This document shows, piece after piece, positions 31,433 through 40,761 of a stretch of DNA of 64,000 nucleotides (its first letter is position 1; every line of letters begins with the position of its first letter). The notes beneath the pieces are model-generated. The model was not told the origin of the DNA. It made no database searches and was given only the letters and a program-made list of their open reading frames with translations. The position numbers were made by a program, and so were the translations under genes. This stretch comes from Pandoraea pneumonica (GTDB lineage: Bacteria > Pseudomonadota > Gammaproteobacteria > Burkholderiales > Burkholderiaceae): contig NZ_CABPSK010000004.1 in the NCBI RefSeq assembly GCF_902459645.1, forward strand, positions 620,001-684,000. The letters are read 5' to 3'.

Positions 31433-31476
31433 AAAAGCGCCGAACCCCTTGATGCACAAGGGGTTCGGCGCTTTTT
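31433..31476. terminator. Strong bidirectional-type terminator
   Basis: AAAAGCGCCGAACCCCTT pairs with AAGGGGTTCGGCGCTTTT over 18 bp around GATGCAC, with T runs on both strands. On the minus strand it lies just after the CoA ligase operon, which ends 26 bases earlier. Confidence 0.9.
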
Positions 31477-31501: not shown

Positions 31502-33052
31502 TTATCGACTGTCAGTTGCGATTGATGTGGCGGGCTGTTTCGATAGCCATGCGGTGAGAATCGGTTTTTGCACTTTCCCAAGCGCGCTCTTCGGTAACGC
31601 GTCGACGATCACCACACGGCGCGGCAATTTGAAGCGCGCGATGCGAGTGCCGAGAAAGTCGAGCACTGCCTGCGATGTCACTTCCACGGACGGTGCGGCG
31701 ACGATCGCGGCTACCGGCACCTCGCCCCAACGCTCATCGGCAATGCCGACCACTGAAGCTTCCAGCACGCCCGGGCAGTCCACCAGCGCATTCTCGATTT
31801 CCGCCGGATAGATGTTCTCGCCGCCCGAGATGATCATGTCTTTGCTGCGGCCCACCACCTCGAAATAACCATCGTCGCGCAGTCGCGCAAGGTCGCCCGA
31901 GCGGAACCAGCCGTCGACGAACGCCGTATGTTGCGGCGCGCGCCAGTACTCGCGCATCACGTTCGGGGCGCGAATGAGAATTTCGCCCACCTCGCCCGGC
32001 GCTACGTCGATACCAGCGCCATCCGCCAGACGCACTTCCACGGCGGGGCAGGCTCGGCCGACGGTACCGGGATGTTCCCGCGCCTCGCCGAAGCGAAGCG
32101 CAATCGACACCGGGCCGGTTTCCGTCGCCCCATACACCTGACCCAGCGGAATGCCACGCGCGTGAAACGCCTCGATGGCCGAGAGCGGCACCACGGACGA
32201 GCCCGCCATCACACCGCGCAACGACGACAGATCGGCCGCCGCCCATGCCGGATGCAATTGCACCGCGCGCATGGTGGCCGGGACCATCAACGAAAGTGTC
32301 GGGCGGCGCGATGCCACGTCGGCCAGCCATGCCGCCGGGTCGAAACGCGGATGCAGCGTCACGCTCGCCCCACACAGCAACGCAGGCAACGTCTGAATGC
32401 ACAGCCCACCCACGTGGAACATCGGCAGCGTCGAGAGCACGTGATCGTCGGCACGCATGTCGTGCGCCCACCAACTGGCCTCCGCGTTGGCAAGCAACCC
32501 GGACTGCGTATGCAACGCGCCCTTCGGCTCCCCCGTCGTGCCCGATGTGTAAGCGAGCAGCACGGGCGCGTCGGGCTGCACGTCGGGATAGTCGACCGGC
32601 TTGATCGACGGCACAGCAATCAGCCCTTCGATGGGCGCGATAGCCGATGGCGGGAGATCGGTGATGGCGTCTTGTTCGAGCGCGTCACGAATCTCGCGGG
32701 CGGCGTCGCGATGCGCTGCGTCGAACCACAGCACGCGCACGCCCGCATGGCGCACGATGGCGGCAAGCTCCGGCACGGCTAGCCGGAAGTTCAGCGGCAG
32801 GAAAATCGCCCCGGCACGTGCGCACGCGAACAGCAACGCAATCTGCAACTCGTCGTTCAGGCCGAGACAGGCAATACGGTCGCCCGGCGCGATGCGCCAG
32901 GTCTCGCGCAGATGCCCGCCCACACGTTCGATACGTCGCCACAACGCGGCGTAGTCAGTCTCTTCGGCTCGCTGGCCGACACCGCAACGCAGCGCCAGCC
33001 GCTTGGGCGTGGCGCGCGCATGACGGGCGAGCGCTTCTACAAAAGGCGTCAA
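31502..33052 (-). CDS. AMP-forming acyl/aryl-CoA synthetase
   Basis: A 516-residue member of the adenylate-forming superfamily. The motifs are LLAYTSGTTGEPKGALHTQSG, YGATETGPVSIALRFGE, WFRSGDLARLRDDGYFEVVGRSKDMIISGGENIYPAEIENAL and the C-terminal lysine region PKSALGKVQKPIL. It makes a CoA thioester from a carboxylic acid. The sequence is equally compatible with medium-chain or aromatic acids. It is the last gene of a four-gene operon with a ring-cleavage dioxygenase, so an aromatic or heteroaromatic acid, or a ring-cleavage product, is a reasonable substrate. A 39-base gap separates it from the preceding gene. Confidence 0.88.
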   Translation of the reverse strand: MTPFVEALARHARATPKRLALRCGVGQRAEETDYAALWRRIERVGGHLRETWRIAPGDRIACLGLNDELQIALLFACARAGAIFLPLNFRLAVPELAAIVRHAGVRVLWFDAAHRDAAREIRDALEQDAITDLPPSAIAPIEGLIAVPSIKPVDYPDVQPDAPVLLAYTSGTTGEPKGALHTQSGLLANAEASWWAHDMRADDHVLSTLPMFHVGGLCIQTLPALLCGASVTLHPRFDPAAWLADVASRRPTLSLMVPATMRAVQLHPAWAAADLSSLRGVMAGSSVVPLSAIEAFHARGIPLGQVYGATETGPVSIALRFGEAREHPGTVGRACPAVEVRLADGAGIDVAPGEVGEILIRAPNVMREYWRAPQHTAFVDGWFRSGDLARLRDDGYFEVVGRSKDMIISGGENIYPAEIENALVDCPGVLEASVVGIADERWGEVPVAAIVAAPSVEVTSQAVLDFLGTRIARFKLPRRVVIVDALPKSALGKVQKPILTAWLSKQPATSIATDSR

Positions 33053-33091
33053 CTTGTCCTCCGCGACAAGTGGGGGTTCAGCGGGCCCAGC

Positions 33092-34336
33092 TCACTCGTC
33101 GCGTTCGCCCGGTTCGTACAGCGCCTCGCGGCCGATGCGATCGAGACACAGCTCGGCCGTCCACGGCAGCATCAGTGCGCCGCAACGCGAGTCGCGATAC
33201 ATCCGTTCGAGTGGCAGCGTCTTGAGCATCGACTGTCCGCCGCACGTGCGAATCGCCAGACGGCACATCTCGTTGGCGTTCTCCATGATCGTGTACTGCG
33301 CGGCGTAAGCCCGCAGACGCGCTTCCTTGCCTGGATCGGCGCGGCCGTCCTGCAATGCGCGCAGGAACAGCGCACGCGTTTGCTCGAGCATGATGTGCAT
33401 CTGCGCCACAGCAATCTGCTTGGTCGGGTACATGCGGCGTTTGACCGGTGCGCCCATGCCTTCGGCTTCGCCACGCAGATACTTCACCGTGAAGTCGTAC
33501 GCAGCCTGCGCGATACCCATGTACGTCGGCGCAAGCGTCATGAACATGTGCGGCCAGCGGCTCGCGGCTTGATAGTAGACACCGCGCGGCATGAGTTGCA
33601 GTTCATCCGGCACGAACACGTCTTTGAACAGCAGCGTACGCGAGACCGTGCCGCGCATGCCCAAGGGGTCCCAATCGCCGGTGACCGTCACGCCCGGCGC
33701 GTCGCCTGGCACGGCGATGTACATCGTGTCCTTCATCGACAATTCGGGCTTGTCTTCGGTGCAAAGCACGCCGTAGTAATTGGCGGCGCCCGAGAGCGAG
33801 GCGAAAATTTTGCGCCCGTTGATCATCCAGCCGCCGTCGACCTTCGTGGCCGTCGTGCCGAACGGTGCCTTGCCTGCGGCCGCCGCGCTGCCTTCGGAGA
33901 ACGGCTGCGCGTAGACCGCGCCGTCTTGCGTCACGCGCGCGAAATGATGCTCACGATAGCGAGCGTGCTCGGTGCGCTGCTCGTCCGTCATGTCGAGATC
34001 GTCGGCCAAGATGCCGGTCCACATCATCGAACACGTATGCATGTTGAACGTGAGCGCGGTGGCACCGCAATGCCGTCCCAGTTCCGCCGACACCATCATG
34101 TAAGTCGCGAAGTCCGCACCCAACCCGCCATGCGCCTCGGGAATGCAGAGCTTGAGCAGCCCGGCAGCGCGCATATCGTCGTAGTTCTCGAACGGGAACG
34201 TGGCCTCGCGGTCCCAGCGCGCGGCGCGCGGGGCGAGCGACTCGCGTCCGACCTGTTCGGCCAGCGCCAACAGACGGCGTTGCTTGTCGGTGAGCGGATA
34301 GTGTTCGCCGACGATCGATGGGGGCTGATAGGCCAC
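33092..34336 (-). CDS. Acyl-CoA-dehydrogenase-fold flavoprotein lacking the usual catalytic glutamate
   Basis: A 414-residue protein started at GTG 34336 with AGGAGA upstream. The N-terminal helical, middle beta and C-terminal helical domains of the ACAD fold are recognisable (LCIPEAHGGLGADFATYMMVSAELGRHCGATAL; GTTATKVDGGWMINGRKIFASLSGAANYYGV; GMRGTVSRTLLFKDVFVPDE). Where normal members read RDA..IYEGT, this one reads YRDSRCGALMLPWTAEL, so the catalytic Glu of the YEGT motif is absent. ACAD-fold flavin monooxygenases such as DszC and HpaH also lack it. With a flavin reductase encoded next door it may be the oxygenase of a two-component hydroxylase. A dehydrogenase with a relocated base remains possible. 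Confidence 0.75.
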   Translation of the reverse strand: MAYQPPSIVGEHYPLTDKQRRLLALAEQVGRESLAPRAARWDREATFPFENYDDMRAAGLLKLCIPEAHGGLGADFATYMMVSAELGRHCGATALTFNMHTCSMMWTGILADDLDMTDEQRTEHARYREHHFARVTQDGAVYAQPFSEGSAAAAGKAPFGTTATKVDGGWMINGRKIFASLSGAANYYGVLCTEDKPELSMKDTMYIAVPGDAPGVTVTGDWDPLGMRGTVSRTLLFKDVFVPDELQLMPRGVYYQAASRWPHMFMTLAPTYMGIAQAAYDFTVKYLRGEAEGMGAPVKRRMYPTKQIAVAQMHIMLEQTRALFLRALQDGRADPGKEARLRAYAAQYTIMENANEMCRLAIRTCGGQSMLKTLPLERMYRDSRCGALMLPWTAELCLDRIGREALYEPGERDE

Positions 34337-34352
34337 GGTTGTCTCCTGGATC

Positions 34353-35186
34353 CTAAAGTGTTGCGAGGAAAGCGCGCACTTCGGCGTCGAACGACGTCGC
34401 ATGCGTCAGATTCATCAGATGCCCGGCGCCGGGCAGGCAGACATAACGCGCGTTCGGGATGGCTTCCGCCATGCGCGCCATGACCTTCGGCGGAGCATTC
34501 GTGTCGTGCTCACCGGCAATGAGCAGCACAGGTACGGCAAGTCGAGCCAGCGCCGCGCGTTGCTCGAAGCCGACGAGTGCCTGCAACGCCGCGCGATACG
34601 CATCGGGTGTCAGTGCGCCCATCGCGTCGACGGCGATGGCGTGCGCTTTGGTTCGCGTCGCCTCGTCGGGCTCGCCAAGCATGCTGGGCACAATGGCTTC
34701 GGCCATCTCGCGCAACGTCTTACCGGCGTCGAGCGGCGCAGTGCGCTGTCGCACGAATTCGCGTTGAAAATCGCCATCCGGCTTGCCGAAAGCGGGCGAC
34801 GTGCCGCATAGCACCAGCGCCGCGATGTCACGCGTGAACGGTTCACCGCGCGCCATCAGCTCCTGCACCACCATGCCGCCCATGCTGTGACCAACCAGTA
34901 CGAAGCGCGATGCGCCGGACGCCGTTGATGTGTCGAGCGCGGCGAGCGCGTTGAGCAAAGCCCGCAGGCTGTCGGCCAGCGCCGCCATCGTCGGCGCTGC
35001 GGGCATGGCGCTCTCGCCGTAGCCGGGCATATCCCATGCAACGACGCGGTGGCCTTCACGCGTGAACGTGTCGAACTGCTGCGGCCAGACGTCGCGATTG
35101 CCGCCGATGCCGTGCAGCAGCACGAGTGTCAGCGGGCCGTCGCCTTCGGCTCGGAAGGCGGGCACTGGCGTGGGGATCGCTGTCAT
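34353..35186 (-). CDS. Alpha/beta-hydrolase (possible NicD-like amide/formyl hydrolase)
   Basis: A 277-residue serine hydrolase. The oxyanion motif LLHGIGGNRDVW, nucleophile elbow VGHSMGGMV, acid region LLIAGEHDTNAPPKV and histidine GAGHLMNLTH give a complete triad. The start ATG at 35186 overlaps the end of the dioxygenase gene by 4 bases, a strong coupling signal. In nicotinate and picolinate degradation an alpha/beta hydrolase (NicD/PicE) deformylates N-formylmaleamate made by the 2,5-dihydroxypyridine dioxygenase. The pairing here suggests the same kind of step. An enol-lactonase or C-C hydrolase role is an alternative. Confidence 0.82.
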   Translation of the reverse strand: MTAIPTPVPAFRAEGDGPLTLVLLHGIGGNRDVWPQQFDTFTREGHRVVAWDMPGYGESAMPAAPTMAALADSLRALLNALAALDTSTASGASRFVLVGHSMGGMVVQELMARGEPFTRDIAALVLCGTSPAFGKPDGDFQREFVRQRTAPLDAGKTLREMAEAIVPSMLGEPDEATRTKAHAIAVDAMGALTPDAYRAALQALVGFEQRAALARLAVPVLLIAGEHDTNAPPKVMARMAEAIPNARYVCLPGAGHLMNLTHATSFDAEVRAFLATL

Positions 35187-36229
35187 GCGAACTCGCCTTG
35201 CAGCACGCCATCGCGCACGACGACGTTGCCGTCGAGTGCAATCGTGCAACGACGCAATGGCAGATCGAAGTGCCCCAGCGTATGACGCCCTGCCACTTCG
35301 TTCGCCCCAGTCGAATAGAGGAAGTTACCGGCGAACGCGCGCTGCTCGGTGCCGTTGCAGTCGCGTTTGTCGTAGCAGGCGAGCGCGTCCCAGCGGGCCC
35401 GCTGGTTCAGACCGAAGCCGACGTGCGACACCGCATACGCATCGCGATCGCCCCACGCCGCGAAATACTCGCGCATGAGATCCACGTCGACGCCCTCGCC
35501 TTCGATCTCGACGACGTAATCGTCTTCGATCGTCAGCGCGATGCGATCGCGTAAGTACTGTTTGAAAGTGAGATTGATGTCGCCCGGGGCCAGCACCAGT
35601 TGGCCGTTCACGCTGTGTGCCGCGGGAAACGCCAACGCCAGACCGCCCGGCCAATGCGCTACTTGTCCCGGTTTTGCACACCAGCCCCAGACACCGCCAA
35701 CGCGGGCGTCGCGCAAACTGATGCGTAAATCGGTACCGGCTTGCGACGTGACGTGCATTTCTGCTGCACTGCGCAAGCGCTTGATCGCAGCACGCACTTT
35801 CGGCTCCAAGGCCGGGTCGGTCGCGCAGCGTTCGAGAATTTCGGGGTGTTCGTTGGAGACCATCAGCACGCGCGCGCCACCGCCCAGAATCTCGGGCAGT
35901 TCGGGCGCGTGTAACAGCCCTTCCACGGTGCAATCGACGACCAGCGCGGCCCCTTTGAGGGCCGCCACGACTGGGGCGAGTTGCCCCAGCGCATCGCTCG
36001 CGCCGGTGGAGCGCACGGGCACCGGCGCACTCACGCGAGGGCTCGGTATCACCAGGCGAAAAGGCCGCGCGCCGAGCGCCTGCACGGCGAGTTCGGCTAA
36101 TTCCACATTGACAGGCCGGGATTGCGTTTCGGCTACAATCGCCACCACATCACCGGGTTGTATGTCGCAGCGCCGCAAGGTCTCGGCAAATACGTCGATC
36201 CACTTATGCTCGATTCGCTCGATCAGCAT
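35183..36229 (-). CDS. NicX-like 2,5-dihydroxypyridine 5,6-dioxygenase family protein
   Basis: A 348-residue protein of the aminopeptidase-M29-like dioxygenase family. The iron ligands reported for Pseudomonas NicX (as I recall, H265, H318 and D320) are matched by His269 in SHVGFGLNQRARWDALACYDKRD and by His320/Asp322 in HTLGHFDLPLRRCTIALDG, with nearly the same spacing. Length is also the same. NicX opens the ring of 2,5-dihydroxypyridine to N-formylmaleamate. It is the first gene of the minus-strand operon and is coupled to an alpha/beta hydrolase. The real ring substrate may be a related N-heterocycle. No nicotinate hydroxylase, NicC, NicE or NicF is seen nearby. Confidence 0.78.
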   Translation of the reverse strand: MLIERIEHKWIDVFAETLRRCDIQPGDVVAIVAETQSRPVNVELAELAVQALGARPFRLVIPSPRVSAPVPVRSTGASDALGQLAPVVAALKGAALVVDCTVEGLLHAPELPEILGGGARVLMVSNEHPEILERCATDPALEPKVRAAIKRLRSAAEMHVTSQAGTDLRISLRDARVGGVWGWCAKPGQVAHWPGGLALAFPAAHSVNGQLVLAPGDINLTFKQYLRDRIALTIEDDYVVEIEGEGVDVDLMREYFAAWGDRDAYAVSHVGFGLNQRARWDALACYDKRDCNGTEQRAFAGNFLYSTGANEVAGRHTLGHFDLPLRRCTIALDGNVVVRDGVLQGEFA

Positions 36230-36332
36230 ATCGTCTCCTGAGCGTCTGACCCTCTCGCCCGCCAGGGGCTCTGCCCCGCGGCACGACGTTGGCCGTCACG
36301 CGTCTTGTCGATCTGTTGTTCGTGCCATAGTA

Positions 36333-36346
36333 TATGAATATTCATA
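36333..36346. promoter_or_regulatory. Perfect palindrome TATGAATATTCATA, MarR operator candidate
   Basis: A 14-bp perfect palindrome in the 160-base divergent gap between the NicX-like gene and the flavin reductase gene. AT-rich palindromes of this size are typical MarR-family operators, and a marR gene is the second gene of the rightward unit. It can control both directions. Confidence 0.65.
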
Positions 36347-36389
36347 CAAATCAACCCGATCAAATTAGCTCGACGGGAGTGCAGGGACA

Positions 36390-36908
36390 GTGAACGCCAA
36401 ACGCGCCACGGCGCCAGATTTCGACAGTGCTGCTTTTCGTCAAGCGCTCGGGCAATTTGCCACGGGCGTGACGGTCATTACTACACGCGCCGACGACGGC
36501 TCGCTCATCGGCATTACCGCCAGTTCGTTCAATTCGGTGTCGCTCACGCCGCCGCTCATCTTGTGGAGCCTGGCCACGCGCGCCGGCAGCATGCCGGTGT
36601 TTCGCGAGAATTCGCACTATGCGGTGAATGTGTTGGCCGCCGATCAACTCGACATCTGCCAGCGCTTTGCCACGATGAAGGGCGACCGCTTTGCCGGTGT
36701 GCCGTACACGCTGTCGGCTTCGGGCACGCCGGTGCTCGATGGCGCGCTCGCGTGGTTCGAGTGTCACAACCGCAGCCGTTACGACGAAGGCGATCACGTG
36801 ATTTTCGTGGGTGAAGTGGAGCGCTGCGGTGTGCACGCCGATGTGGCCAATCGTATGCCGCTCGTCTTTCACGCCGGCGGCTTCCACAAGCCGCAATCGC
36901 TCGGGTAA
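36390..36908 (+). CDS. Flavin reductase (HpaC-like component of a two-component monooxygenase)
   Basis: A 172-residue FMN-binding split-barrel protein, started at GTG 36390 after AGGGA. FRQALGQFATGVTVITTRADDGSLIGITASSFNSVSLTPPLILWSL is the diagnostic N-terminal half of the flavin_reduct family, and the closing motif is FHAGGF. It reduces free FMN or FAD with NAD(P)H and hands it to a partner oxygenase. No HpaB-type oxygenase is adjacent; the only flavoprotein oxygenase candidate is the ACAD-fold protein in the divergent operon. A MarR gene follows 9 bases later. Confidence 0.88.
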   Translation: MNAKRATAPDFDSAAFRQALGQFATGVTVITTRADDGSLIGITASSFNSVSLTPPLILWSLATRAGSMPVFRENSHYAVNVLAADQLDICQRFATMKGDRFAGVPYTLSASGTPVLDGALAWFECHNRSRYDEGDHVIFVGEVERCGVHADVANRMPLVFHAGGFHKPQSLG

Positions 36909-36917
36909 GCGCAGCAC

Positions 36918-37367
36918 ATGAGCGCCGGCACACCTTTCGTCGACGACTATCTGGCGTATTTGCTGGCACGCGCCAGTACGCTGGTGTCCGATGAGTTTCA
37001 TCGCGAGGTCGCGGCAGCGGGCCTTGGCGTGTCGGAGTGGCGCGTGCTTGCCACGCTCTCCGACGGCCGCGCCCGCACCATCAATCAGTTGGCGGACATC
37101 GTGCTCGCCAAACAACCGACGGTGACCAAGGTCATCGACCGGCTGGAAGCGGCAGGCGACGTGGTGCGCGGTGAAAGCGCGACCGACCGGCGTCAGTCGC
37201 TCGTCTCGCTCACCGAGGCGGGGCGCGAACTCGTGACGCCGCTGCTCGCCAGCGCGCGACGCCACGAAGCCGGGGTGCTTGCGCGCTTCGGTGCGGAGCA
37301 ATCGGCACAACTCAAAGAGACACTGCGTCGCCTCATCGACGAGATGGCGCGTCCCCACAGCGAGTGA
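36918..37367 (+). CDS. MarR-family transcriptional regulator
   Basis: A 149-residue winged-helix regulator. The DNA-binding core is VSEWRVLATLSDGRARTINQLADIVLAKQPTVTKVIDRLEAAGDVVRGESATDRRQSLVSLTEAGREL, with the wing residues DRRQ typical of MarR proteins. It forms a two-gene unit with the flavin reductase and faces the NicX-like operon. NicR and PicR, the repressors of nicotinate and picolinate pathways, are also MarR proteins, which supports a heteroaromatic inducer. Confidence 0.9.
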   Translation: MSAGTPFVDDYLAYLLARASTLVSDEFHREVAAAGLGVSEWRVLATLSDGRARTINQLADIVLAKQPTVTKVIDRLEAAGDVVRGESATDRRQSLVSLTEAGRELVTPLLASARRHEAGVLARFGAEQSAQLKETLRRLIDEMARPHSE

Positions 37368-37589: not shown

Positions 37590-38246
37590 ATGACCGCACC
37601 CCAAAACCACCGCAGCGACGAGCGTCGTGTGTGGGATATCAGCGCGCCGCTCTCGGCCGACACACCGGTCTGGCCGGGCGACACCGCGTTTTCGGAAGAG
37701 GCGGTGTGGCAGATCGGTCCCGGGTGCCCGGTCAACGTCGGGCGCATCACGCTTTCGCCGCATACCGGCGCCCACGCCGATGCCCCACGTCACTACGACG
37801 AGGACGGGGCATGCATTGGTGAGGTAGCGCTCGACACCTATCTGGGACCGTGCCGCGTCATTCATTGCATTGGCGCATCGCCCGTGGTCACGCCGGAGAT
37901 GGTCGCTGCCCATCTGAACGATTTACCCCCGCGCGTCTTGCTGCGCACTTATGAGCGTGCCCCGATCGCTCGCTGGGACAGCGCGTTCTGCGCCGTCGCG
38001 CCTGAGACCATCGATTTGCTGGCCTCGCATGGCGTGAAACTCGTGGGCATCGACACGCCGTCGCTCGATCCGCAGGAAAGCAAAACGATGGATGCGCACC
38101 ACCGGATTCGCGCCCATCGCATGGCCATTCTCGAAGGACTGGTGCTCGACGCGATTGCGCCCGCCGATTACGAACTGATCGCGCTGCCGCTCAAGTTCAT
38201 GCGTCTCGATGCCAGCCCTGTGCGCGCCGTGTTGCGCTCGCTTTGA
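37590..38246 (+). CDS. kynB: Kynurenine formamidase (arylformamidase)
   Basis: A 218-residue metal-dependent hydrolase, started at the ATG at 37590 rather than six codons upstream. It converts N-formylkynurenine to kynurenine in aerobic tryptophan degradation. The zinc-binding motif is [12 protein letters not shown], and [21 protein letters not shown] and [18 protein letters not shown] are typical of KynB-type cyclase-fold enzymes. It is the first gene of the kynB-kynU-kynA set, although 250 bases separate it from kynU, so a second promoter may exist there. Confidence 0.95.
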
Positions 38247-38496
38247 GCGCGATGACTTGCGTCGCGTTGCAACGTAACGCCTTCGGCCAATCAGGACGCT
38301 AGTCACCAACGAACATACAGAGCCACGCGCAGCCACATCGGACAGATTTATTGATTTGGACTGACGCGGGCCGTACAAGAGGCATCGACGTATCTCGGAA
38401 GTACGCGGCTTGTGAGCCGACGGCGACGACGATGACCTTGCACTTCACCAACCCTTTCGATTTTTAACGCATTGTCTTTACTCAAGAACCGACACC

Positions 38497-39750
38497 ATGA
38501 CGTCTTCTCGCAATGACTGTTTGGCCCTCGACGCGGCCGATCCGCTTGCCCCGCTGCGCGCACAGTTCGACCTGCCGCAAGGCGTGATTTATCTCGATGG
38601 CAACTCGCTGGGCGCGCGTCCGATCGCCGCTGCCAAGCGCGCACAGGAAGTGATTACCGGTGAATGGGGCAATGGCCTGATTCGCAGCTGGAACGATGCC
38701 AACTGGTTCGCGCTGCCGCGCACGCTGGGCGATGCGATGGCACCGATCGTCGGCGCCGGTAAGGGCGAAGTCGTGGTAACCGACACCACGTCGAGCAACC
38801 TGTTCAAGGTGATGGCTGCGGCGCTGGACGCCCAACGCACGCGTTCGCCGCAACGTAAGGTGGTGGTCTCCGAGCGCAGCAACTTCCCGACCGATCTGTA
38901 CATCGTGCAAGGCCTCACGCGCCTGCTCGACGACGGCTACTCGCTGCGCCTGATCGACTCGCCGGCCGAGCTGGTGGGCGCATTGGGCGATGACGTCGCT
39001 GTGGTGCTGCTCACGCACGTGAACTACCGCACGGGCGCAATGTACGACATGGCTGCGCGCACTGCCGAGATTCATGCTGCCGGCGCCCTTGCGGTGTGGG
39101 ATCTGTGCCACTCGGCCGGTGCAGTGCCTGTCGATCTGAACGGCGCGAACGCCGACTACGCGGTCGGTTGCACGTACAAGTATCTGAACGGCGGCCCGGG
39201 CTCGCCCGCGTTCGTGTGGGTGAACAAGCGTCACCAAGACACGTTCTGGCAACCGCTGTCGGGCTGGTGGGGTCACCGCACGCCGTTCGCGATGACGCCG
39301 GAATACACGCCGGACGACGGCATCGGCCGTTATCTCTGTGGCACGCAGCCGATCGTCTCGCTGGCGCTCGTGCAGTGTGGACTGGATATCTTCGCGCAAA
39401 CGTCGATGGACGCCCTGCGCCGCAAGTCGCTCGCGTTGACCGATCTGTTTATCAAGCTGGTGGAAGAGCGTTGCAGCGAGTTCCCGCTCAACCTCGTGAC
39501 GCCGCGCAATCACGCCGATCGTGGCTCGCAGGTGAGCTTCGAGCATCCGGAAGGTTTCGCTGTCATTCAGGCGCTGATCGCCCGTGGCGTGATTGGCGAT
39601 TACCGTGAGCCGCGCATCATGCGCTTCGGTATGACGCCGCTGTACACGAGCTTTGCCGACGTGTGGGATTCGGTCGAGATTCTGCGCGACGTACTCACCA
39701 CCGGTTCGTGGGACAAGCCCGAATTCCATCGCCGTGGCACGGTGACCTAA
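38497..39750 (+). CDS. kynU: Kynureninase
   Basis: A 417-residue PLP enzyme that cleaves kynurenine to anthranilate and alanine. [11 protein letters not shown] near the N-terminus and [42 protein letters not shown] are unmistakable; the Schiff-base lysine is Lys228 in TYKYLNGG. The C-terminal [24 protein letters not shown] contacts the substrate. The product anthranilate must be used elsewhere; no ant dioxygenase genes lie in this window. The gap to kynA is 15 bases, so the two are co-transcribed. Confidence 0.97.
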
Positions 39751-39765
39751 GCAGGAGCAGTACGC

Positions 39766-40761
39766 ATGACAAAGACATCTTCCCCCGCAAGCAACGTGCA
39801 CGATCTCCCGGGCCAGGCGTCAAAAGCGTCTGATACGCCGCAGGGCGGTTGTCCGTTCGGGCATGGCGCATCGGCCGACGCACCGGCGGCGGGCAGTGCT
39901 TCTGCCAACACAGATGCGACCGCCGCCGCTGCGGCGGGCGACCCGCAGTGGCACGACGCTCAGCTCGATTTCTCGAAAAGCATGAGCTATGGCGACTACC
40001 TGTCGCTCGATCCGATTCTCAACGCGCAGCATCCGCGCTCGACCGACCACAACGAGATGCTGTTCATCATCCAGCATCAGACGAGCGAGTTGTGGATGAA
40101 GCTGGCGTTGTACGAGTTGCAGGCGGCGCGCACCGCCGTGCATAACGATGCGTTGCCGCCAGCGTTCAAGATGCTCGCGCGCGTGTCGCGCATTCTCGAG
40201 CAACTGGTGCAGGCGTGGAGCGTGCTCGCCACAATGACGCCGTCGGAGTATTCGTCCATGCGGCCCTCGTTGGGGAGCTCGTCGGGCTTCCAGTCGTATC
40301 AGTACCGCATTCTTGAATTCATGCTGGGCAACAAGAACGCGGCGATGCTCAAGCCTCACGAGCATCGTCCGGACTTGTTCAAGCAGGTGGAAGCGGCACT
40401 GAACGCGCCGTCGTTCTATGACGAGGTGGTGCGCTTGCTGGCGCGTCGCGGGTTTGCCATTGCACCGGAGCGGCTCGAACGCGACTGGACGTTGCCCACA
40501 CCGCACGACAAGAGCGTCGAGGCGGCATGGCTCGAGGTGTATCGCAATCCGTCGCAGCACTGGGAGCTGTACGAGATGGCCGAGGAACTGGTCGATCTCG
40601 AAGATGCGTTCCGTCAATGGCGCTTCCGCCACGTGACGACCGTCGAGCGCATCATTGGCTTCAAGCAAGGAACGGGCGGCACGAACGGCGCCCCTTACCT
40701 GCGCAAGATGCTAGACGTGGTGCTGTTCCCTGAGCTTTGGCACGTGCGCACGTTGCTGTGA
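39766..40761 (+). CDS. kynA: Tryptophan 2,3-dioxygenase
   Basis: A 331-residue heme dioxygenase that opens the indole ring of tryptophan to N-formylkynurenine. The catalytic core starts near residue 65 with [47 protein letters not shown] and ends with [46 protein letters not shown], which includes the heme-ligating region. The first 60 residues are a low-complexity extension with a Cys-Pro motif (GGCPFGH, Cys29), resembling heme-regulatory motifs. It is last in the operon and followed by a terminator. Confidence 0.97.

Follow-up and report, generated by a model that had tools for sequence, protein, structure and literature searches.

A conserved NicX-like gene unit of Pandoraea pneumonica linked to anthranilate and possibly to the ring opening of an indole-type acid

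Which ring would a NicX-type dioxygenase open when the other genes of nicotinate breakdown are missing around it? This question is raised by a six-gene locus of Pandoraea pneumonica lying in a window of 64,000 nucleotides (the whole stretch analysed; assembly GCF_902459645.1, contig NZ_CABPSK010000004.1, positions 620,001 to 684,000). The locus codes for a NicX homologue (NICX), an alpha/beta hydrolase (ABH), a flavoprotein of the acyl-CoA dehydrogenase fold (ACAD), an acyl-CoA ligase (LIG), a flavin reductase (FRED) and a MarR-family regulator (MARR). A link of this NICX unit to anthranilate is well supported, and we give roughly an even chance to the reading that it is an aerobic catabolic operon opening the N-heterocycle of an indole-type acid, with anthranilate passed on to the 2-aminobenzoyl-CoA (abm) pathway. 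Computation shows which genes are present and how widely they are conserved, that NICX has an iron site but has lost the glutamate that NicX uses for its pyridine substrate, that a palindrome is conserved, and that abm and kynurenine (kyn) genes are associated with the unit. The features of the locus are:

31502..33052, minus strand: LIG, AMP-forming acyl-CoA ligase; TTG start behind GGAGG; Pfam AMP-binding, 1.5e-76
33092..34336, minus strand: ACAD, ACAD-fold flavoprotein, proposed oxygenase component; GTG start with the ribosome site AGGAGA
34353..35186, minus strand: ABH, alpha/beta hydrolase with the nucleophile motif GHSMGG, proposed deformylase or amide hydrolase; Pfam
35183..36229, minus strand: NICX, NicX homologue, proposed non-haem Fe(II) ring-cleaving dioxygenase; PDB 7cn3, E 4.3e-55
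36333..36346, no strand: palindrome TATGAATATTCATA, candidate MarR operator common to both divergent units; read from the sequence
36390..36908, plus strand: FRED, flavin reductase; Flavin_Reduct, 4e-42
36918..37367, plus strand: MARR, MarR-family regulator; Pfam and NCBIfam

The sequence-only reading of this DNA had placed the six genes in two divergent units sharing one palindrome, and all of these elements are present: the two units lie around a candidate operator whose core, ATGAANNTTCAT, is conserved. The NICX stop overlaps the ABH start (ATGA), and a longer ACAD open reading frame starts at 34402, running into the ABH gene.

The only PDB sequence match of NICX is NicX of Pseudomonas putida KT2440 (7cn3), to which 124 of 324 aligned residues are identical, and the NICX model superposes on NicX with a TM-score of 0.89-0.90, against 0.54-0.65 for aminopeptidases. 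The iron ligands of NicX are H265, S302, H318 and D320 and its substrate residues L104, H105, E177 and H189, an E177A mutant having 2.7% activity left (PMC7910607). The four Fe(II) ligands are invariant in 75/75 aligned rows and in 80/80 named loci, these loci being the best 80 of 589 relatives, with neighbours counted within about 8 kb and many contigs ending early. NICX of the window also keeps L104, H105, H189 and R293, and it differs from NicX at Glu177, the equivalent of which is Val180. Across the 75 rows (the window protein counted twice) this position is E in 4, Q in 1 and V/G/T/N in 70; glutamate is kept only in NicX, in the two nic-cluster NicX proteins of the window genome and in genome G772, whose match is a true NicX. 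The named loci have V (61), G (15), N (2), S (1) or I (1), and in a tree the Glu-bearing rows stand across a well supported branch from the NICX clade. To judge from these residues, the clade has retained the ring-opening machinery of NicX and lost its pyridine-recognition site. The earlier proposal of a NicX-type iron site followed by a hydrolase is supported.

Co-occurrence of the genes in other genomes had been set beforehand as a test, and it was found: among the 80 named loci, ACAD was present in 73, ABH in 71, LIG in 61 (at least 40% identity), the reductase in 51 and MarR in 46, with all six in 34. A search of the window's family gave close NICX matches in 35 of 200 genomes (the 145 match-less genomes not being in the list), and in the window's genus 22 of the 23 genomes listed, its own among them, have such a match; in all 29 relatives' loci from that search, which extend over part of ACAD only and not over the ligase, the hydrolase, reductase and MarR genes stand beside NICX. 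At E 1e-70, NICX matched in 21/399 genomes of the order and 20/398 of the phylum. A whole-genome search recovered ACAD in 32 of 39 genomes, in 31 of them at most 6 kb from NICX. Carriers of the unit include Pandoraea, Cupriavidus, Limnohabitans, Polaromonas, Bradyrhizobium and Roseibium; the 80 named loci belong to Burkholderiales, to several groups of Alphaproteobacteria and to metagenome genomes with labels such as Acidimicrobiales, Microthrix and Methylomirabilota. Because the unit is spread over these genera and over actinobacterial metagenome genomes, it is likely to be a route for a common natural compound of soil and freshwater.

ACAD had been described as lacking its catalytic glutamate, and indeed a proline occupies in 18/18 aligned orthologues what we take to be the usual position of that residue in the family; the site that other dehydrogenases use instead was assessed only by visual inspection. 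The ACAD model has a mean pLDDT of 82, and its closest PDB relatives by sequence are 5gj7 and 5z8t, the latter titled a flavin-containing monooxygenase. An ordinary acyl-CoA dehydrogenase is disfavoured by the invariant proline, the fold search being unable to separate dehydrogenase from oxygenase. At the level of the gene set, ACAD and FRED have the two marks of group D two-component flavin monooxygenases, an ACAD-type fold and a partner flavin reductase gene. In a sister group (L080, L081, L082, L182, L183 and L074), NICX and the hydrolase stand beside FAD_binding_3 monooxygenases in place of ACAD, and a class-A monooxygenase lies beside NICX and ABH in all five genomes of family f19. Since the sister group has such a hydroxylase in the place of ACAD, the arrangement suggests that ACAD and FRED occupy the hydroxylase slot, and the earlier idea of a conserved catabolic unit with a two-component oxygenase made of these proteins is supported at this level. 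In type of protein and proposed chemistry ACAD resembles TdaE, which is also ACAD-like and is a flavoprotein oxygenase acting on a CoA ester; TdaE takes its electrons from its own substrate, whereas the NICX unit has a flavin reductase gene (PMC8283759). The best NCBIfam model of FRED is that of the p-hydroxyphenylacetate 3-hydroxylase reductase, under its cut-off. The best PDB matches of LIG are 8weu/8wev (fatty-acyl / feruloyl-CoA synthetase; 341 bits), the match to the anthranilate-CoA ligase 4wv3 being far weaker (138 bits).

The link to anthranilate, which the earlier reading had not foreseen, came from the neighbours of the unit. In Limnohabitans and other Burkholderiales the genes adjoining the cluster code for a large protein (about 780 residues, with FAD_binding_3 and Oxidored_FMN domains), an SDR, an enoyl-CoA hydratase, an ACAD, a second ligase and a Rid protein; of this set, the large protein, SDR and hydratase are found in Bradyrhizobium and in locus L088. 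The large protein of the window genome passes NF006101 (bifunctional salicylyl-CoA 5-hydroxylase/oxidoreductase), and the best PDB match of the abm ligase is 4wv3. Because of its two-domain build and of an operon partner matching anthranilate-CoA ligase, we take the large protein to be the 2-aminobenzoyl-CoA monooxygenase/reductase. The abm pathway of anthranilate is described in PMC4539516.

A full-length 2-aminobenzoyl-CoA enzyme was found in 32/32 genomes with NICX and ACAD, and in 14 of these it lies on the same contig at most 17 kb from NICX or ACAD; in genome G857, ACAD is 10 kb from it and NICX is on a different contig. In a genome-wide search of 36 genomes the full-length enzyme was present in 30, those without it being the five f19 genomes and G772. 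It accompanies NICX in 33/33 tested carriers outside the f19 and nic types. Within the order sample, where the f19 genomes were counted among the others, it was present in 16/16 carriers of NICX and ACAD and in 41/383 other genomes (15 of 72 reported genomes matched the reductase half only and were excluded, leaving 57); within the phylum sample the figures were 19/19 NICX carriers (18 with ACAD) and 52/379 others, the best two candidates per genome being scored in both. Fisher p values of about 4e-15 (order) and 7e-16 (phylum) are not true probabilities, as the two samples have genomes in common and kinship among the genomes inflates the values. Nine families (f1, f3, f11, f49, f59, f88, f91, f95 and f114) from at least two classes are nevertheless represented among the carriers. 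Relative to the abm pathway, the NICX unit is a neighbour in several lineages; the abm genes form a separate operon with their own anthranilate-type ligase, and the unit accompanies the abm enzyme in only some genomes.

The kynurenine genes also yield anthranilate. In the window they follow MARR:

37590..40761, plus strand: kynBUA (arylformamidase, kynureninase, tryptophan 2,3-dioxygenase); all three above NCBIfam cut-offs

These neighbouring anthranilate-producing genes are context outside the unit. Among the 80 named loci, kyn genes stand beside the cluster in 5 from Pandoraea, 5 from Cupriavidus and 1 from Bradyrhizobium. Two or more abm genes were found in 24 of these loci, two or more kyn genes in 11, and either in 34. 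The Bradyrhizobium locus L171 holds kynUAB, NICX-LIG-ACAD-ABH and an abm SDR and hydratase within 17 kb. The variant with a glutamine-synthetase-like gene has abm genes next to it in L088; in Shinella (L092), kynA and a ligase of the anthranilate type stand beside it. A tryptophan-derived substrate, one candidate of the sequence-only reading, is supported as a candidate.

The substrate, the order of steps, the individual reactions and the regulation that we infer are as follows. NicX cleaves the C(OH)-CH(N) bond of the motif N-CH=C-OH, giving a carboxylate and an N-formyl group, and the simplest N-heterocycle that such a cut and a deformylation would turn into anthranilate is 3-hydroxyindole. 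As the ligase is conserved, the substrate would be an acid, and as ACAD and a reductase are present, a hydroxylation would precede the ring opening. LIG would activate the acid, which might be indole-3-carboxylate, as its CoA ester; FRED would pass reduced flavin to ACAD, which would hydroxylate the ring to give a 3-hydroxyindole; NICX would cut its C(OH)-CH bond with O2, yielding N-formylanthranilate; and ABH would take off formate, leaving anthranilate. NicC replaces the carboxyl of 6-hydroxynicotinate, and ACAD might likewise replace the activated carboxyl (ipso-oxidation), in which case the set would parallel NicC-NicX-NicD. The flavoprotein would attack an activated acyl group, namely the LIG thioester or, in Rhizobiales, the amide made by a glutamine-synthetase-like enzyme. 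That NICX is specifically a 3-hydroxyindole 2,3-dioxygenase forming N-formylanthranilate, with its substrate supplied by ACAD through a CoA-dependent oxidative decarboxylation of indole-3-carboxylate, is a tentative assignment, possible and on the whole doubtful.

Work on indole degraders has either proposed or detected N-formylanthranilate (PMC6221969, PMC9871250); one Gram-positive degrader was unable to decompose it (PMC6221969), and a 2025 preprint found that a compound of the formula C8H7NO3 in the iad pathway is a different substance from N-formylanthranilate (PMC12633357). Among the indole and indole-acetate systems, iif likewise has an oxygenase fed by a flavin reductase, iac/iad likewise have a MarR regulator, and anthranilate is a product in iif and iad (PMC6221969, PMC9613470). 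By gene content, the NICX unit differs from iif/ind and iac/iad in that ring opening is assigned to a NicX-type iron enzyme and that a CoA ligase is conserved. Subunits of an aromatic-ring-hydroxylating dioxygenase (IacCD/IadDE) were not among the Pfam matches of the six proteins, the rest of the genome not having been searched, and neither was an SDR of the IifB type among those of the six genes. No description of the six-gene set was found in the portions of the open-licence literature searched. If the proposal is true, ring opening by the NicX family would extend beyond pyridines, the feeding of the 2-aminobenzoyl-CoA pathway would be explained in part, and an N-formylanthranilate route that older work had put forward without genes (PMC6221969) would acquire them.

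Several results weigh against an indole-acid route that feeds the abm pathway. ACAD was not seen in 7 of the 80 named loci, some of them short contigs; genome G626 has NICX and the abm enzyme and no ACAD at E 1e-90; and by fold the ACAD model is as good a match to ordinary dehydrogenases as to 5z8t. ABH is only distantly NicD-like (E 1e-6 and 1.6e-4 to the two NicD-like proteins of the genome, in a six-sequence comparison). Neither abm nor kyn genes were seen in 46 of the 80 loci, many of them short stretches; all 10 named Pandoraea and Cupriavidus loci adjoin kyn and not abm genes, and the abm operon of the window genome lies about 324 kb from the NICX unit. The core ATGAANNTTCAT, the sole motif tried as an operator common to abm and the NICX unit, was not found in six abm loci (L175-L180). 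Two variants fit poorly: one Rhizobiales clade has a glutamine-synthetase-like gene at the place of LIG, and Bradyrhizobium adds octopine-dehydrogenase-like and 3-hydroxyacyl-CoA dehydrogenase genes. Finally, the abm association is one of shared carriage and does not give the order of steps, so the unit might use a product of the abm pathway.

Because this association alone cannot tell upstream from downstream, we kept as a rival a unit acting downstream of the 2-aminobenzoyl-CoA pathway, or on a side product of it, with NICX cleaving 5-hydroxyanthranilate or its CoA ester. Like 2,5-dihydroxypyridine, 5-hydroxyanthranilate has its OH para to another N- or O-bearing ring substituent. It has been reported as an intermediate on an anthranilate-gentisate route (PMC4539516), the cupin and fumarylacetoacetate-hydrolase-family genes adjoining NICX in L090 would suit such a role, and dependence on the 2-aminobenzoyl-CoA enzyme explains its universal presence in carriers at least equally well. 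This arrangement leaves the second ligase, ACAD with FRED and the deformylase-like hydrolase unexplained, however, and genes for a dehydrogenase, a hydratase and an SDR are already part of the abm operon; we consider this rival distinctly unlikely. A route working on CoA esters throughout, in which indole-3-acetate or a related side-chain acid would lead through 2-aminobenzoylacetyl-CoA to 2-aminobenzoyl-CoA and not to free anthranilate, seems rather unlikely. It would account for the conservation of LIG and for the CoA branch of anthranilate breakdown in all carriers tested, and the anaerobic iaa route to 2-aminobenzoyl-CoA provides a precedent (PMC9613470), but no thiolase was found among the selected neighbours given a Pfam or NCBIfam search, and the aerobic iac/iad loci rest on aromatic-ring-hydroxylating dioxygenases (PMC9613470), absent from the six genes.

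The sequence-only reading had also pointed to parallels with nicotinate and picolinate degradation and had noted that NicC, NicE and NicF were missing. At the locus this absence holds, and no NicC-, NicE- or NicF-like gene was found within about 8 kb of NICX in the 80 named loci; it does not hold for the genome, which contains two separate nic-type clusters elsewhere. In 36 genomes searched at E 1e-30, NicE was found in 4 and NicF in 9 (three of these nine at less than 43% identity), and one of the 36 is a true nic genome. With two nic clusters already in the genome and so few NicE and NicF matches, a maleamate route is not the general function of the unit. The nic/pic clusters share with it the series hydroxylase, NicX and alpha/beta hydrolase; the NICX unit has ACAD and a flavin reductase as hydroxylase partner, has no Mo-hydroxylase, NicC, NicE or NicF, and possesses a CoA ligase and an abm association. 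A third route for pyridines, whether nicotinate, picolinate or hydroxypyridine, with N-formylmaleamate and maleamate as its last products, would suit a NicX homologue with an intact iron site, as well as the NicE- and NicF-like genes elsewhere in the window genome; given the loss of Glu177 in the NICX clade, the scarcity of NicE and NicF and the separate nic clusters, we judge it very improbable, and a substrate of this type is not supported. Public plasmid records label homologues of NICX as peptidase M29, which would make NICX an aminopeptidase of that type and the operon a unit for peptide or fatty-acid salvage. With a model nearer to NicX than to aminopeptidases and iron ligands invariant in every aligned row, this identity was dropped, and the proline of ACAD argues against the ordinary acyl-CoA dehydrogenase of a salvage unit; we find such a function scarcely credible.

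The two nic-type clusters of the window genome (L093/L094; G000:C1:862000-896000) are about 15 kb apart, each with a FAD_binding_3, an Amdase, an alpha/beta hydrolase, a NicX and an isochorismatase gene, and a further NicE-like gene lies at C1:808957. Variation was also seen around NICX itself. In the Rhizobiales loci L087-L092, NICX and ACAD are accompanied by a fusion of Polyketide_cyc2 (START-like) with the hydrolase, a TetR regulator, the glutamine-synthetase-like protein, a flavin reductase and an amino-acid permease; L088 departs from this set in the fusion and shows no permease in the stretch seen. In L083 (6389-8467) and other Bradyrhizobium loci, the octopine/nopaline-dehydrogenase-like protein and the 3-hydroxyacyl-CoA dehydrogenase are encoded inside the cluster. 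Genes for a cupin, a FAA-hydrolase and a carbon-nitrogen hydrolase adjoin NICX in L090 (8263-11883), and L073 (15551-17688) has a second NICX-like gene, 33% identical and with glutamine at the place of Glu177, that adjoins a related cupin.

Regulation of the NICX unit is predicted from the palindrome. Its core ATGAANNTTCAT occurs at most 300 bp upstream of NICX in 42/95 rows, a count that includes duplicates, where base shuffles predict 0.01; the counts are 36/73 for unique upstream regions and 36/45 where NICX is at least 63% identical. It is found in 35 of the 80 named loci, all of them Burkholderiales by the available labels. Two divergent genomes of the same genus (L023 and L024) were found to lack the core and have another palindrome. 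MARR would repress both units through this predicted operator until an aromatic acid binds. At the other end of the minus-strand unit lies one more feature:

31433..31475, no strand: hairpin just 3' of the LIG stop, probable terminator; RNA fold

It was first spotted by eye and folded afterwards, giving -37.4 kcal/mol (z -8.7), an energy that 0/200 shuffles reached. A promoter/terminator consensus scan, whose match counts were not above chance, did not list it.

FRED and MARR together match one model, NF045919 (p-hydroxyphenylacetate hydroxylase reductase), FRED in its N-terminal and MARR in its C-terminal part (window 36390-37367). Both matches fall within one predicted open reading frame of 333 residues in L085 (7680-8681), and in L090 (17701-18879) the reductase carries a fused LysR substrate-binding domain. 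MARR may therefore be a ligand-sensing reductase domain, or be derived from one.

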